Source: Armatimonadota bacterium
Lineage (GTDB): Bacteria > Armatimonadota > UBA5829 > DTJY01
Direction of reading: 5' to 3'
NCBI GenBank assembly: GCA_017993055.1
Contig: JAGONM010000023.1
Location: 1-63,046, forward strand
DNA length: 63,046 nt
The position numbers were made by a program, and so were the translations under genes. The notes under the pieces are model-generated. The model did no database searches. It was not told the origin of the DNA and saw nothing but the letters and a program-made list of their open reading frames with translations. This document shows, piece by piece, positions 40,276 to 47,039 of this stretch. The number at the start of each line of letters is the position of its first letter. The first letter of the stretch is position 1.

Positions 40276-41808
40276 TTACCTCCCCGTAATGGCCTTCACC
40301 AGCCCCTCGATCGTGTAGTCCTCCGCGACGATGTCGGGATGGAGGCCGTGGTCCTCGGCGGTCTGGGCGGTGATCGGGCCGATGCAGGCGATCATGACGC
40401 CCTCCCGTACCGATTCCCGGCCGACAAGCTGAACGAAGTTCTTCACCGTCGAGGAACTTGTGAACGTGATGATGTCGATCTCCCCGCGCTCAAGCATTTC
40501 CTTGATCGGTGGCGCGCAGGACTCCTCGATCACCGTCTGATAAGACGCCACGACATCCACCTGCGCTCCCCTTTCCCTGAGCTTTTCGGGCAGCACTTCG
40601 CGCGCGTCTTTCGCCCCGGGGATCAGGATACGCTTCCCGGCTGGGTCCTCGGGGAACTCCTCGACGACCGATTCCGCGACGAACTCTGACGGGATGAACT
40701 CCATCCGCATGCCCAGAGACGAGACAGCCTCGGCGGTTGCTGGTCCGATAGCGCCGATCTTTGGGCCTTTGAGCGATCGGACGTCCTTCCAGGTTTCGTA
40801 GAGACGACGACACAGGTTGTAGACCGCATTCGTGCTCGTGAAGAGTATCCAGTCGTATTCCCCGATCCGGTCTATCGCCGCATCGAGTTCACTGCAGTCC
40901 TGGACCGGCGAGATGCGGATGACCGGGAACTCGACCGGCTCGGCTCCCTGCTCGCGAAGGAGTTCGGACAGCTTGCTCGCCTGATCGCGGCTCCGAGTGA
41001 CGAGCACGCGTTTCCCGGACAGCGGGCGGTTGTCGAACCACCGAAGCTTCTCCCGCAGGTTGACGACATCGCCGACGACGGTGACCGCCGGCGACTTGAA
41101 GCCTGCCGACTTCTCGACGATGTCCGCGAGGGTCCCCACGAGCGTCTCCTGCTCGGCCCGAGTGCCCCATCGGACGAGCGCGACCGGCGTCGAGGGATCC
41201 CTTCCATTCGCCACCAATTCCGACACGATGCTCGGCAGGTTCTCGACGCCCATGAGGAAGACGATCGTGTCCAGGCCGGTGGAGATCTTGTCCCACTTGA
41301 TGCGCGACTGCTGACCCTCACCCCAACCCTCTCCCTCAGAGGGCGAGGGGGCTCTCTCGTGGCCGGTGATGATGCCCAGTGATGTCGTGAGCCCGCGGTG
41401 CGTGACCGGAATCCCCGCGTAGGCCGGAGCCGCGATCGCCGAGGTGACTCCCGGCACTTCCTCCCACTCGATGCCCGCCTCCACCAGCGCCTCCGCCTCC
41501 TCGCCGCCGCGCCCGAAGACGAACGGGTCGCCGCCCTTGAGCCGCACGACGGTCTTGCCCTCCCGAGCCTTCTCCACGAGCAGACTGTTGATGTCCTCCT
41601 GCTTCATGGTGTGCCGGCTGGATTCCTTGCCGACGTAGATCAGTTCGGCCTCAGGGCGGGCGTGGCATAGGATCGAGGGATGCACCAGGCGATCGTATAC
41701 GATCACGTCGGCCCGCCGGATACATTCCGCGCCCCTCAGGGTCAACAGGCCCGGATCACCGGGCCCTGCTCCTACCAGATAGACTCTTCCAACCAGCTTG
41801 TCCGTCAT
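40276..41808 (-). CDS. cobA-hemD: Fused uroporphyrinogen-III C-methyltransferase / uroporphyrinogen-III synthase
   Basis: A 510-residue fusion. Residues 1-250 are the SAM-dependent methyltransferase (VGRVYLVGAGPGDPGLLTLR, VVRLKGGDPFVFGRGGEEAE, VPGVTSAIAAPAYAGIPVTH) making precorrin-2. Residues 255-510 are HemD (GKRVLVTRSRDQASKLSELL, ILFTSTNAVYNL, GAIGPATAEAV, ITFTSSSTVKNFVQL, CIGPITAQTA). The start overlaps nadB as ATGA. Oddity: residues about 153-166 (APSPSEGEGWGEGQ) come from a dispersed repeat (41315-41350) and replace the short loop that normally follows TGHE. Confidence 0.96.
   Translation of the reverse strand: MTDKLVGRVYLVGAGPGDPGLLTLRGAECIRRADVIVYDRLVHPSILCHARPEAELIYVGKESSRHTMKQEDINSLLVEKAREGKTVVRLKGGDPFVFGRGGEEAEALVEAGIEWEEVPGVTSAIAAPAYAGIPVTHRGLTTSLGIITGHERAPSPSEGEGWGEGQQSRIKWDKISTGLDTIVFLMGVENLPSIVSELVANGRDPSTPVALVRWGTRAEQETLVGTLADIVEKSAGFKSPAVTVVGDVVNLREKLRWFDNRPLSGKRVLVTRSRDQASKLSELLREQGAEPVEFPVIRISPVQDCSELDAAIDRIGEYDWILFTSTNAVYNLCRRLYETWKDVRSLKGPKIGAIGPATAEAVSSLGMRMEFIPSEFVAESVVEEFPEDPAGKRILIPGAKDAREVLPEKLRERGAQVDVVASYQTVIEESCAPPIKEMLERGEIDIITFTSSSTVKNFVQLVGRESVREGVMIACIGPITAQTAEDHGLHPDIVAEDYTIEGLVKAITGR
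41315..41350. repeat. Dispersed CCCTCACCCCAACCCTCTCCC repeat inside cobA/hemD
   Basis: The plus-strand word CCCTCACCCCAACCCTCTCC followed by CTCAGAGGGCGAGGG is a familiar intergenic repeat in many bacteria. Here it lies in frame in a surface loop of the methyltransferase domain. Confidence 0.75.
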
Positions 41809-43391
41809 GATCCGCGGTTCAGTACTGTATCCTTCGTGTTCTCATCCAGCTTGGGGTAGTCAAGATTGTAGTTGAGCCCCCGACTTTCCTTCCTGGAAAT
41901 GGCGGACTCTATGATCAGGGAGGCCGTCGTGACCATGTTCCGAAGTTCGAGAAGGTCGCTGCTCAAGCGGCCGGACTCATACATCGCGTCCACCCGCGCG
42001 GCGAGTTCGGCGAGCTGGTCCTTCGCCTTCTGCAGCCGCTCGTTCGTGCGCACTATGCCGACGTAGCGCCACATGATCCGCCTGATCGCGCCCTTCAGCC
42101 CCGCGATCTCCTCGAGGGATGTCTGCCTCGAGTGGGCGGCCTTCGGAAAGTCGGGTATCTCGCCTTCGCAGCGCGCGCCCATGTACTGCTCCGAGTCGCC
42201 GGCCGCCCGGTGAGCGAAGACCACCGCCTCGAGCAGGGAGTTCGACGCCAGCCGGTTCGCGCCGTGGACTCCGGTGCATGCGACTTCTCCGCATGCGTAG
42301 AGCCGCTCGACCGAGGACCGAGCATTCACGTCGGTCAACACGCCGCCGCAGCTGTAATGAGCCGCCGGGACGATCGGGATCCAGTCCTCGGTGATGTCGA
42401 TGCCGACCGAGAGGCACTTCTGGTAGATGGTCGGGAACCGCTCCCGGACGTGGGCCGCGTCCAGGTGCGTCACGTCGAGATAGACGCACTCGTCTCCGCT
42501 CTTCTTCAGCTCGGCGTCAATCGCGCGGGCGACGATGTCCCTCGGCGCGAGGCAGCCCATCTCGTGGTAGTTCTCCATGAACGTGCTGCCGTCCCTGAGG
42601 CGCAGGATGCCTCCCTCGCCCCGGACCGCCTCCGAGATGAGGAACGAGCGCGCCTCGGGGTGATGCAGGGAGGTCGGGTGAAACTGGATGAACTCCATGT
42701 TGGCGATACCGGCCCCCGCGCGGTATGCCATCGCCACGCCGTCGCCGGTAGCGATCTCCGGGTTCGTCGTGTGGAGATAGACCTGCCCCGCGCCGCCGGT
42801 CGCGAGCATAGTGACCCTCGCGCGGAAGGTCGTGACCTCCTCGGTCTCGGCGTCGAGCACGTATGCCCCGCAGCACGTCAGGCCGCTGTCGCCGGGGCGC
42901 GTGATGAGGTCAATCGCGCACTCGTGCTCGAAGGTGCGGATGTTTTCCTGGTGCTTGCACCGGACGATCAGCGCGCGCTCGATCTCCCGCCCGGTCAGGT
43001 CGGCGGCGTGGAGGATGCGGCGCATCGAGTGGCCGCCCTCGCGTCCGAGCGCGAACCTCGTCTCGCCGGTGGGGGTCTTCTCGCGGCTGAACTGGACGCC
43101 CAGTTCGACGAGTTCCCTGATCCGCTCCGGGCCTTCCCTGACGAGGATCTCGACGGTCTCCAGCCGGCAGAGCCCTGCGCCCGCGACGAGCGTGTCGCGG
43201 ATGTGAAGATCGAAACTGTCATCGGGGGCGATCACGCCCGCGATCCCGCCCTGCGCGTAGTTCGTGTTAGATTCGGTGTCGCTCTTCTTCGTGACCAGCG
43301 CGACCCGTCCGAGCTTCGACACCTTGAGCGCGAAACTCAGCCCCGCTATGCCGCTCCCGAGGACGAGGTAATCAACATCCATAACTGCCAT
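41805..43391 (-). CDS. nadB: L-aspartate oxidase
   Basis: A 528-residue FAD enzyme, first step of NAD synthesis from aspartate (iminosuccinate formed). VLGSGIAGLSFALKVSK is the FAD loop. SNTNYAQGGIAGVIAPDDSF, FALGREGGHSMRRILHAADL, MLATGGAGQVY, FIQFHPTSLHHPEARSFLIS (active-site His), VPAAHYSCGGVLTD and GVHGANRLASNSLLEAVVFA identify NadB rather than succinate dehydrogenase. It starts the nadB-cobA/hemD-TPR-ahbC run. Its pathway partners nadA and nadC lie 15 kb away at 58-60 kb. Confidence 0.96.
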   Translation of the reverse strand: MAVMDVDYLVLGSGIAGLSFALKVSKLGRVALVTKKSDTESNTNYAQGGIAGVIAPDDSFDLHIRDTLVAGAGLCRLETVEILVREGPERIRELVELGVQFSREKTPTGETRFALGREGGHSMRRILHAADLTGREIERALIVRCKHQENIRTFEHECAIDLITRPGDSGLTCCGAYVLDAETEEVTTFRARVTMLATGGAGQVYLHTTNPEIATGDGVAMAYRAGAGIANMEFIQFHPTSLHHPEARSFLISEAVRGEGGILRLRDGSTFMENYHEMGCLAPRDIVARAIDAELKKSGDECVYLDVTHLDAAHVRERFPTIYQKCLSVGIDITEDWIPIVPAAHYSCGGVLTDVNARSSVERLYACGEVACTGVHGANRLASNSLLEAVVFAHRAAGDSEQYMGARCEGEIPDFPKAAHSRQTSLEEIAGLKGAIRRIMWRYVGIVRTNERLQKAKDQLAELAARVDAMYESGRLSSDLLELRNMVTTASLIIESAISRKESRGLNYNLDYPKLDENTKDTVLNRGS

Positions 43392-43458
43392 GAAGTGTCT
43401 CTTTTCGCCGCCGCCGGACTGGTTTTCCGGCCGCGAAGTTCTTCGCTTTCCCTCGGCG

Positions 43459-43488
43459 ATTATCCCACTTCACGGTGAGGGGAGTCAA
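43459..43488 (-). promoter_or_regulatory. Promoter of the nadB-ahbC operon
   Basis: TTGACT (43483-43488) and GATAAT (43459-43464) on the minus strand are 18 bp apart, with a leader of about 60 nt. No recognised NAD-regulator box is seen. Confidence 0.55.
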
Positions 43489-43506
43489 CAGGATGGGCTT
43501 CGAGGA

Positions 43507-44442
43507 CTAACGTCGCAGGTCGGCGAGGATACGGTCAGCGCCGGCGGAGAGGAGGACTTGGGACAGCTCGATGCCGAGTTCGTCGGGCTGATCCGGTCGA
43601 TCGATGACCCGGCCGCGGACGAGCTTCGCCCCGTCGAGGCTCGCGACGACTCCCTCAAGGACAAGCGCGCCGCTATCCAGACGGGCGAGAGCGCCGATCG
43701 GGACCTGGCAGCCCCCTTCGAGCGACTTCATCAGCGACCGCTCCGCTCGGACCGCCGCGTGGGTCTCCGGGTGATCGAGAACGGCCAGCAGCAGGAACGT
43801 CTCGGGGTCGTCCCGACGAGCCTGGATCGCGAGCGCGCCCTGACCGACGGCGGGCAGGCATATCTCGGGCGAAAGCTTCTCGGTGATGCGGTCGGCCCAG
43901 CCCATGCGGTTCAATCCCGCGCATGCAAGGACGATCGCGTCGTACTCCCCGTTGTCGAGCTTGCGGAGCCGGGTGTCGAGATTGCCGCGGATGTCGAGGA
44001 TCTCGAGGTTCGGGCGGTGGTGGAGTATCTGGGCGCGCCTGCGGAGGCTGCTGCTGCCGATCCGCGCTCCCGGCGGCAGGTCGGCGAGCACGGCGCCGCC
44101 GGAGACCAGTGCATCTAGCGGGTCTTCTCGCTCGGGCACGGCGGCGATGCAGAGGCCGTCCGGCATCTCGGTCGGCAGGTCCTTCATGCTGTGGACGACG
44201 AAGTCCACCTCGCGGGAGAGCAGCGCCTGCTCGAGTTCCTTGACGAAGAGGCCCTTGTCGCCGATGCCGGCCAGGGGGACGTCGAGTATCCGGTCCCCTT
44301 TCGTCTTGATGACCTGTACCTCGACAGTGAAGGGGTCGCCGCCTGGAGACGCCTCCCACAGCTGTCTGAGGCGTTCGGCGACCTGATTGGTCTGTGCGAG
44401 CGCTAGCGCGCTGCCCCTGGTCCCGACCGTCAGAAACTTCAT
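43507..44442 (-). CDS. hemC: Porphobilinogen deaminase (hydroxymethylbilane synthase)
   Basis: A 311-residue enzyme joining four porphobilinogens. KFLTVGTRGSALALAQTNQV is the family start. FVVHSMKDLPTE contains the catalytic Asp, GARIGSSSLRRRAQ the Arg cluster for substrate acetates and propionates, LEILDIRGNLDTRL follows, and SLEGGCQVPIGA carries dipyrromethane-binding Cys245. The ATG is family-consistent; a longer frame would run into the structured leader. It is on the same strand as the nadB operon, whose own promoter follows. Confidence 0.97.
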   Translation of the reverse strand: MKFLTVGTRGSALALAQTNQVAERLRQLWEASPGGDPFTVEVQVIKTKGDRILDVPLAGIGDKGLFVKELEQALLSREVDFVVHSMKDLPTEMPDGLCIAAVPEREDPLDALVSGGAVLADLPPGARIGSSSLRRRAQILHHRPNLEILDIRGNLDTRLRKLDNGEYDAIVLACAGLNRMGWADRITEKLSPEICLPAVGQGALAIQARRDDPETFLLLAVLDHPETHAAVRAERSLMKSLEGGCQVPIGALARLDSGALVLEGVVASLDGAKLVRGRVIDRPDQPDELGIELSQVLLSAGADRILADLRR

Positions 44443-44554
44443 GTTATTGACTGCCGATGTTTGGATTACCCCGCATGCGGGTACAAGAGCAATACATTGC
44501 GCTTTGTGCGCAACTGGGCAACGGTTGTTGCCCCTTGCCTTCCTCATGCTCTCG

Positions 44555-44588
44555 GCGGCAGTGAACTCCCTTCACTGCCGCGTTTTTT
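44555..44588 (+). terminator. Strong intrinsic terminator on the plus strand
   Basis: A perfect 11-bp stem GCGGCAGTGAA (44555-44565) and TTCACTGCCGC (44571-44581), loop CTCCC, then G and TTTTTT. No plus-strand protein gene ends here. Three further hairpins lie just before it (44470-44481, 44497-44513, 44516-44533), suggesting a small plus-strand RNA antisense to the hemC leader. Confidence 0.8.
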
Positions 44589-44589
44589 A

Positions 44590-46608
44590 TCAAAGGCTCG
44601 CGGGGGCGCTCTCCGCCTTCGCAGTGCGGACTTCCTCCGCTGCCCGGTCGTTCGGGTCGAACGAGACCTTCAGGCCCTCCGCCGGGCTGCCGTCCTTCCG
44701 GCAGAACCTCGCGTAGAGGTTCTTCGCGCCGGGGTCGAGGACGACTTTCACCAGCAGGCGGTTCCAGCCGCTCTTGAGCAGGACGGACCCGCTCTCGGTA
44801 TCGGGAAAATCGGGCTTCCCGCCGAGACTCGAAACGGCCAGCTCGCCGTTCACCCACGCCTTCAGCCGGCCCGCATACCCCGTCCGAAACTCTACACGCT
44901 GCGTCCTCGGCGACTTGACGTATACCGCGAGGTAGGCCGCCCCGGCCTGCGCATCCTTGAACGCGGATGAGAGGTCCGTCAGGCCGTCGTGCGACTTCCA
45001 GGACTCCCACTTGCCGTCGCCGACCTTCTCTCCGAGCCTCGGAGCCGCGAGCGGCTCGCCCGAGTCGAGGAGGGCGTACCTGAACGAGTTGCAGCCGTAC
45101 TGCACCGTGCCGAGCGACTTCACGCTCACTGTGATCTCCCGCTTCCCCGCGAGGTGGTAGTACGGGATGACGGTGTCAACTTCCTTCCAGAGGCGGTAGC
45201 GCTCCCTGCCGGGATGGCTCCAGATAGTCCGCCACTCGCCGTTCACGGTGATGCTCGCGCGCTGGTCGCGGTCGCCCGCGTCTATCAGCCTGCGGAGTAT
45301 CACGTTCCCATCTTTGTGTCCCGTCAGGGAGAGAGTGAGGTTCTCCTCGCCGCGGAAGTAGCGCCCGCTCTCACTCACCCGCTGACCGTCGGGGCCCCGG
45401 AAGCTGCGCTCTCCGCTCGAGTACTCATCCGTCACGGAATAACCGTGCGCCTTCTCGCTCGCCTCGTCGAAAGTGTCCATGACGTCGAGCGGCTGCCCCG
45501 CAAAGAAGTCCCGGGCGATCAGGGCATCCGGCGAAGCCGGCGAGCCGTCCGCGGCCTGAGCCGTGAACGCGCCCGCCGTGAGCCACTCGGAGATGAACGC
45601 CGCCGGGCTGAGCACCTCGGCGTCCCAGCCGATCTCTCCGCCGAACGGCCGGTCGGCCTCGCTCATCCGGACGGCCAGCCGCGCGGGGCCGGGCTCGGCG
45701 GGCGATCGGATCGCCAGCGTCCACGTCCTGTTGGCGAGAGTGCCGACCGTCTCGCCGTCCGAGAGCGACGGCTCGGGGACGACGAGCGCATCGGGCTTCA
45801 GCGAATCCAGACGCACCCGGTTGAAGTGCGACCAGGGCAGGTAACCGACGTTTCTGACATGGAGATCCAGGGTGTATTCCCGGCCGGCGAGCAGCGCGGT
45901 CGGATAGAACTGCAGCACGGAGGGCCTCGCATCGTACGGAGGATGCCCCGCCAGCAGGTCGGCGCGCACGCGGTTTCGGATGTCGGCAAGCGGGGCGTAG
46001 AGGTGGTCGCCGGGGCATGCCGTCGCGTTCCAGTCCCGATGGCCCCCGACCGCTATCGCGGTCCGGTCGAAGATCACCGCATTCGCGGTCGGGTCAATGT
46101 CGTATGTGTCGCACAGCCAGGAGAGCAGCCGCGCGAGGGACTCGATCTGTACCTGCGACGGGTATTCCTTCTCGTGGAAGTCCCCGATCACGTTGACGCC
46201 GATGTTCGACGTGTTCGGCGGCGAGTGGGTGCCCATCCATCCGAGCGGGCGGCCCTGATAGACGGTGCCGTCGCTTCCGATGAGGAGGTGATATCCGATG
46301 TCGCCCCAGCCCTTGCCGACGTGCATCTCCTGAATCTCGCGGAGCTTCCTCCTGTCCTCGGCGGGATCGGGCGGATTGGCGCCCGCCGGGATGTACGTAT
46401 GGTGGATCGTTATCGCGACGGGGTCGCCGAGCGGCCCCTGCGAATACGGATCGAAGACGCGGTCCTGATAGCGATCACCCTCGCGCATCGAGCCCCACTC
46501 GTCCTTGGGAACGATCGTGGGGGCGGATATGCGAGAGCCGCCGAAGGATGAGGTGACGGAGAGGATGAGGGCGGCCGAGACCAGGAGAGCGGAAGTGGCA
46601 GGTTTCAT
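44590..46608 (-). CDS. Secreted N-acetylmuramoyl-L-alanine amidase with C-terminal beta domains
   Basis: A 672-residue protein with a Sec signal (MKPATSALLVSAALILSVTS). Residues about 60-225 form an Amidase_2/PGRP zinc domain: ITIHHTYIPAG (zinc His), GWGDIGYHLLIGSDGTVYQG, GRPLGWMGTHSPPNTSNIGV and VGGHRDWNATACPGDHLY (His and Cys ligands). Two immunoglobulin- or galactose-binding-like beta regions follow (about 235-350 and 380-660, e.g. LRRLIDAGDRDQRASITVNG). It would cleave the stem peptide from peptidoglycan. The extra domains may bind glycans. The promoter is at 46659-46687. Confidence 0.9.
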   Translation of the reverse strand: MKPATSALLVSAALILSVTSSFGGSRISAPTIVPKDEWGSMREGDRYQDRVFDPYSQGPLGDPVAITIHHTYIPAGANPPDPAEDRRKLREIQEMHVGKGWGDIGYHLLIGSDGTVYQGRPLGWMGTHSPPNTSNIGVNVIGDFHEKEYPSQVQIESLARLLSWLCDTYDIDPTANAVIFDRTAIAVGGHRDWNATACPGDHLYAPLADIRNRVRADLLAGHPPYDARPSVLQFYPTALLAGREYTLDLHVRNVGYLPWSHFNRVRLDSLKPDALVVPEPSLSDGETVGTLANRTWTLAIRSPAEPGPARLAVRMSEADRPFGGEIGWDAEVLSPAAFISEWLTAGAFTAQAADGSPASPDALIARDFFAGQPLDVMDTFDEASEKAHGYSVTDEYSSGERSFRGPDGQRVSESGRYFRGEENLTLSLTGHKDGNVILRRLIDAGDRDQRASITVNGEWRTIWSHPGRERYRLWKEVDTVIPYYHLAGKREITVSVKSLGTVQYGCNSFRYALLDSGEPLAAPRLGEKVGDGKWESWKSHDGLTDLSSAFKDAQAGAAYLAVYVKSPRTQRVEFRTGYAGRLKAWVNGELAVSSLGGKPDFPDTESGSVLLKSGWNRLLVKVVLDPGAKNLYARFCRKDGSPAEGLKVSFDPNDRAAEEVRTAKAESAPASL

Positions 46609-46938: not shown

Positions 46939-47039
46939 ATGTCCCTGCCGATTCCCTTTTACCCCGGCCAGAGTGTTTCTAAACATAACAAATAAAAACT
47001 TTTGAAACATTTTTGCACAGATGCCCACGTCCGCGTTCC

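Follow-up and report, generated by a model that had tools for sequence, protein, structure and literature searches.

A candidate stress-type small RNA gene beside hemC in an Armatimonadota genome, with homologues away from hemC in two relatives

Small RNAs (sRNAs) depending on the stress sigma factor SigB are of a known kind. RsaA of Staphylococcus aureus contains a C-rich unpaired motif. This sRNA is SigB-dependent and trans-acting, and its pairing blocks translation initiation (PMC9266662). SbrB of the same species, a SigB-dependent RNA of 145 nt, is described as lying downstream of lexA, opposite to its neighbouring gene, as ending at an intrinsic terminator and as encoding a small protein; lexA is affected by SigB-dependent antisense read-through from sbrB (PMC8745188). 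The SigB-driven S1290 and S1136/SR7 of Bacillus subtilis are located opposite a neighbour gene and act on the gene they overlap, and SigB-dependent antisense RNAs of this species are reported to act on the neighbours opuB and rpsD (PMC8464778). SbrE of Listeria monocytogenes is a non-coding RNA up-regulated by SigB (PMC3565269). The SigB consensus is given as GTTTAA-N12-14-GGGA/TAA/T (PMC8346170) or GTTTAA-N15 +/-2-GGGTAT (PMC9847131); in the latter source a spacer of 14 bp is described as apparently optimal for B. subtilis. In the literature library searched, no paper joined Armatimonadetes, small RNA and sigma factor.

The window is the whole stretch of 63,046 nucleotides that was analysed (contig JAGONM010000023.1 of an Armatimonadota bacterium, genome G000). 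An earlier note had described four consecutive hairpins followed by TTTTTT between hemC and the next gene, and had proposed a plus-strand small RNA antisense to the hemC leader. All four repeats, and the T run after them, are indeed at the positions given, no plus-strand gene ends at this run, and both neighbours (hemC and Amidase_2) are on the minus strand (Table 1). The start codon of hemC (44442) and the stop of Amidase_2 (44590) are separated by 147 bases. hemC and the predicted sRNA are divergent, the start codon of hemC being 16 nt from the -35 box; at the other end the T run and the Amidase_2 stop codon are 1 nt apart. Over its whole length, the predicted sRNA is complementary to positions 49-146 nt before the hemC start codon. 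Downstream of hemC, on the same strand, lie a nadB-like gene (FAD-binding) and a gene for a TP_methylase-HEM4 fusion (40276-44442, minus), the three being probably one operon.

Table 1. Coordinates (window positions) of the predicted sRNA, its parts and the two adjacent genes.
Feature	Position	Strand	Remarks
hemC (hydroxymethylbilane synthase)	43507..44442	minus	TIGR00212, 341 bits vs cut-off 164
-35 box GTTTGG, SigB/SigF type	44459..44464	plus	5/6 letters common with GTTTAG of G004 and G002
12-bp palindrome CCCGCATGCGGG	44470..44481	none	overlaps promoter spacer and start of -10 box
-10 box GGGTAC, 14-nt spacer after -35 box	44479..44484	plus	GGGTA identical in 3/3 copies
Predicted small RNA, ~98 nt	44491..44588	plus	start inferred ~7 nt after -10 box; end = T run
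Hairpin 1, TTGCGC/GCGCAA, 6 pairs	44497..44513	plus	38 nt from GTTT box in 3/3 copies
Hairpin 2, GGGCAAC/GTTGCCC	44516..44533	plus	7, 6 and 7 pairs in window, G004 and G002
Unpaired linker, putative seed	44534..44554	plus	invariant motif TTGCCTTCCTCATGC at 44535-44549
Intrinsic terminator	44555..44588	plus	hairpin 44555-44581, then T6 at 44583-44588
Amidase_2 gene (N-acetylmuramoyl-L-alanine amidase)	44590..46608	minus	PF01510, 77.2 bits

A nucleotide search with a 171-base query against 101 genomes (the own genome and 100 relatives) gave homologues in two of the four other genomes of the same family, i.e., G004 (76% over 85 nt, BLAST E 1.1e-8) and G002 (76%, BLAST E 2.5e-4). The conserved core corresponds to 44476-44560. 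The element is single copy in its own genome at E <= 0.001 and was not found in G001 and G003, the remaining members of the family. A covariance model (R1) was built from the three copies. Its convincing matches are restricted to the own genome, G002 and G004, among 28 genomes of the class and 291 of the phylum, the phylum scan using stricter filters than the class scan. The following candidates were rejected: (i) among the weaker BLAST matches in other genomes, the one that was read (L087), which is coding-like and devoid of the motif; (ii) R1 matches in G025 and G134, which consist of a tRNA-like end then a GC-rich terminator, without the linker; (iii) weak matches in the class genomes G013, G012, G021 and G026, devoid of the motif on the reported strand. 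A viral collection had no match to the linker plus GGCGGC pattern. The HemC relatives of the named genome collection (80 loci) were left out as too distant.

In G004 and G002 the element is flanked by a glycoside-hydrolase-like gene (+) and by murA (-). It is followed by no plus-strand gene and is not near hemC: the sRNA and hemC are at C8:2051 and C8:79587 in G004, and on contigs C17 and C1 in G002. The HemC proteins are only 54-57% identical, which makes 76% in non-coding DNA striking. The place of hemC, elsewhere in both genomes, rules out a conserved hemC leader, and makes an antisense action on hemC at most local; a hemC leader or riboregulator, which does not stay upstream of hemC in the relatives, was thus rejected. 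The neighbours differ and the element is kept, as for a trans-acting intergenic sRNA. It is very likely, on the basis of sequence comparison, that the element is a real, conserved sRNA gene and that its link with hemC is incidental; a hairpin cluster adjoining hemC need not bear on heme.

It is accordingly unlikely that a SigB-driven transcript acts here mainly by lowering hemC, through collision or pairing with its 5' side. The short distance between the -35 box and the hemC start, the complementarity upstream of hemC and the cases of opuB, rpsD and lexA mentioned above are in favour of such a cis-antisense RNA. Nevertheless, the RNA is away from hemC in both other genomes that have it. Moreover, antisense pairing needs no conserved unpaired linker, yet the linker is the most conserved part of the element (15 letters out of 15 in the three copies). 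The antisense proposal of the earlier note is thus retained as a local overlap with the 5' side of hemC, which is real, and finds no support as a main role. The promoter is directed away from hemC, across its upstream region, so that local interference with hemC is possible.

That note had found no good promoter, a statement which has to be revised: a SigB/SigF-type site, GTTTGG-N14-GGGTAC, is present at 44459-44484. The two other copies have GTTTAG-N14-GGGTAA and GTTTAG-N14-GGGTAG. All three thus associate a GTTTAA-like -35 box, a spacer within 12-17 nt and a GGGWAW-like -10 box; the -35 box departs from the consensus at its final one or two positions, and the -10 box, in two copies out of three, at its final position. 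The spacer has 14 letters in each copy, of which only 4 (G004) and 3 (G002) match those of the window. When the window is compared with G004, 5 letters of 6 are common in GTTT(G/A)G and 5 of 6 in GGGTA(C/A), vs. 17 of 60 (ungapped) in the 60 nt before the -35 box. The sRNA is apparently, as far as these boxes indicate, under a stress sigma factor of SigB/SigF type. The pattern GTTT-N15..17-GGG[AT]A has three sites in the whole 63-kb window (both strands), one of them being the sRNA promoter, and chance alone would give about 0.001 SigB-type site in the 40 bases that precede hairpin 1 (own arithmetic). The SigB motif was met only after a sigma-70 search, thus some looking-around has to be allowed for. 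Another SigB-type site, GTTTAG-N14-GGGTAA, is found at 46960-46984 (-), between the divergent ndk and Amidase_2 genes, and points at the amidase.

The same stand-alone sRNA could depend on another sigma factor, the SigB-like boxes being fortuitous; this is improbable, though the genome-wide distribution of the motif and the 13 sigma-family matches of G000 leave room for it. GTTTR-N15-GGGTA occurs 20 times in G000 vs. 7 for the reversed control; in the whole genomes of G002 (19 vs. 24) and G004 (15 vs. 28) it is no commoner than this control. All 20 sites of G000 and all 15 of G004 were classified, the 19 sites of G002 being left out. The start of an ORF of at least 100 aa is found 20-250 nt downstream of 14 of the 20 sites in G000 (mirrored control 15/20, random 212/672) and of 4 of the 15 sites in G004 (mirrored control 4/15, random 83/490). 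The motif of G000 is thus enriched near gene starts, and since the mirrored control behaves alike this test shows no preferred orientation. The SigB boxes combined with the CTTCCTC pattern are found in 6 of 28 genomes, i.e., the three known copies and three others (reversed control: 4); the three others were taken as chance on the matched letters alone. Against another sigma factor, nothing upstream of the RNA is conserved as clearly as the two boxes, whose spacing is exact, and there is no sigma-70-like site above background: the best score in the window, 5.05, is to be compared with a background median of 4.85 (95%: 5.9), and this candidate was rejected. In G004, SigB-type sites (L193, L196) are also located directly before genes that resemble, by eye, DnaK and site-2 protease.

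A SigB/F/G-family sigma gene is found above the curated cut-off in the five genomes of the family (284.9 bits vs. 234.35 in G000), including G001 and G003 from which the sRNA is absent. The sigB locus of G000 (L184, C5:18500-27500) contains, in this order, DUF948-like, YtxH, RsbV-like STAS, RsbW-like ATPase, SigB/F/G sigma (C5:23487-24161) and membrane-protein genes; the sigma gene is thus accompanied by RsbV/RsbW-like partners, as expected for a SigB regulon. GTTTAY...GGGAAT is present at the same promoter spacing upstream of ytxH in the sigB operon of all five genomes. This stretch is also coding and was therefore not counted as a promoter footprint. 6S RNA (RF00013) was rejected as an identity for the element: its model has no match there, and a 6S RNA above cut-off is found elsewhere in each of the five genomes. 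In three of them (G000 C5, G001 C90, G003 C123) some 4.5-5 kb separate this 6S RNA from sigB; in G002 and G004 it is on a different contig from sigB.

From the inferred start, 44491, the predicted folds of the three copies all comprise a pair of hairpins, then a linker left open, then a terminator, with an extra short helix closing the first two hairpins in G004 and G002. The fold of 44491-44588 (+) has -41.0 kcal/mol and z = -5.0, with no equally low value among 200 shuffles. The terminator hairpin is GC-rich and perfect, with 11 pairs, and is followed by G and six T. A terminator scan of 43800-45200 gives a single site, on the plus strand, which is this last hairpin; since 0.7 site is expected by chance in 1.4 kb, the scan by itself is no proof. 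The first of the four hairpins of the earlier note (44470-44481) exists as a repeat and not as a conserved one: the CCCGCATGCGGG palindrome is non-palindromic in G004/G002, is part of the promoter and is probably untranscribed. No open reading frame is conserved, the copies differing by indels of 1, 1 and 2 bases. To judge from its letters alone, the element thus has a promoter of its own, an intrinsic terminator and no conserved frame, i.e., the features of an intergenic sRNA. An ordinary terminator or a piece of 3' UTR with chance hairpins, and no regulatory RNA, is quite unlikely. The chance level of the scan leaves room for it, and in G004/G002 a plus-strand gene lies about 100 nt before the element, which could serve to terminate it. 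On the contrary, the window has no plus-strand gene just upstream (hemC is on the minus strand), and the 15 linker letters, two hairpins, both boxes and the 38-nt distance are nonetheless kept.

The minus strand of the element folds equally well (z -5.0), thus the strand cannot be told from folding alone. In every copy the 6 pairs of hairpin 1 are all standard; one of them changes from U-A to G-C, and three use G-U on the plus strand, where the minus strand would have A-C mismatches. One terminator pair in G004/G002 fits the minus strand only. The seventh pair of hairpin 2 is C-G in the window and A-U in G002, and the inner stem of the terminator is rewritten yet paired (AGTGAA/TTCACT vs. GATGG/CCATC). 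In each of the three copies, the plus strand has a T-rich run after the last hairpin. Among the outcomes that the earlier note had named as informative are significant covariation, and conservation only as a minus-strand leader. Paired changes exist; with three rows, two of them close sisters, they are not significant (the formal covariation score is reached by 114 of 500 shuffles). Two pairs are changed on both sides, no more than in shuffles, and additional double changes appear in the terminator only when the stem is registered by hand from the outside. As for the second outcome, conservation is not limited to a minus-strand leader. The plus-strand small RNA itself is supported by conservation at another locus, by conserved promoter and terminator and by wobble pairs that mostly fit the plus strand alone, all of them sequence features. 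A minus-strand element (hemC leader, 3' UTR of the amidase or short leader peptide starting with MRKAR) is largely refuted and remains most improbable: its equally good fold and ATGAGGAAGGCAAGG (MRKAR), read on this strand in the three copies (44533-44547; homologues L082, L083), are outweighed by a frame that diverges after these 5 residues in copies with 1-2 nt insertions, by the plus-strand T runs, by three plus-only pairs of hairpin 1 vs. one minus-only pair, and by the next gene to the left in G004/G002, which is on the plus strand, so that no minus-strand gene follows the element and a leader makes no sense there.

The linker (about 20 nt, C/U-rich and conserved: CUUGCCUUCCUCAUGC) contains the 15 letters TTGCCTTCCTCATGC, identical in the three copies, and CCUUCCUCA is unpaired in the three predicted folds. 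Its motif is the complement of GAGGAAGG. In G004, a piece of 16S rRNA contains the usual GGATCACCTCCTTT, thus GAGG-type Shine-Dalgarno sequences are expected in this genome; it contains GAGGAAGG too, and this 8-nt match could be due to chance. The 16S matches of G004 are dissimilar, i.e., a 1873-base span on C18 (L237) vs. two contig-end pieces on C27 and C2 (L239, L240); an insert, a divergent copy or a contamination is possible. A search for targets with the 12-nt linker complement listed 128 matches in three genomes, of which 30 were read: most are coding by eye (GAG-GAA-GGC-AAG-like codons) and none is a convincing ribosome-binding site. Among the start regions of the window (53 called genes, 169 start candidates), none passes the 1% level except the own antisense strand (background of random 42-mers, 1% level = -21.1 kcal/mol).

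The best explanation, held with moderate confidence, is that 44459-44588 (+) would be a stand-alone stress sRNA gene whose linker pairs with Shine-Dalgarno regions, with a possible local interference with hemC. Conservation, promoter boxes, terminator, fold and the SigB-family sigma gene are read from the sequences; transcription, sigma dependence, seed, targets and direction of regulation we infer from them. RNA polymerase with a SigB/SigF-type factor would start at about 44491 and stop at the terminator, giving an RNA of about 98 nt made of two short hairpins, the unpaired linker and the terminator stem. This RNA would accumulate under general stress and pair, through its linker, with Shine-Dalgarno regions of GAGG/GAGGAAG type in trans-encoded mRNAs, the translation of which would fall. 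In this species a local interference with hemC may be added, the RNA being antisense to the region upstream of this gene. Since the sister species carry the RNA away from hemC, it probably acts elsewhere as a stress regulator and is no dedicated heme switch. A broader picture is improbable: a lineage-specific stress RNA of a little-studied phylum, under SigB-family control, which would lower translation widely through its invariant anti-Shine-Dalgarno linker (with its 8-nt GAGGAAGG match to 16S rRNA), and which would be here also an antisense brake on heme synthesis. Promoter, terminator and putative seed can be read from three genomes, and the gene is compact and directly testable.

The SigB-controlled sRNAs used for comparison come from Staphylococcus, Listeria and Bacillus. 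A clean example from a lineage as remote as this one would suggest that sRNAs are coupled to the general stress response more widely than in these genera. No Rfam family includes the element: the whole window has no match at the gathering threshold, and in permissive scans of the element and its G004 copy every match is far below the gathering score. The comparison with SbrE was made through the Rfam scan alone. The alphaproteobacterial sRNAs CcsR1 and ar7 have, as the element, a pyrimidine-rich motif (CcsR1 is named for its CCUCCUCCC motif); membership was rejected, the permissive scores being at chance level (11.2 bits vs. gathering 65.3; 15.3 vs. 60). S1290 and S1136/SR7 resemble the element in being opposite to a neighbour gene; as described in PMC8464778 they act on the overlapped gene, whereas the neighbour of the element is not conserved. 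The blocking of translation initiation by pairing, as for RsaA, is proposed for the element, a likeness drawn from the description of RsaA and not from its sequence. SbrB, as presented in PMC8745188, differs by its small protein and by its place downstream of lexA, the element having neither conserved frame nor Rfam match. On the other hand, both are of a similar length class, with an intrinsic terminator and an opposite neighbouring gene, and the sbrB promoter (GTTT-N16-GGGTAA) has in GTTT-N16-GGGTA the very spacing of the element.
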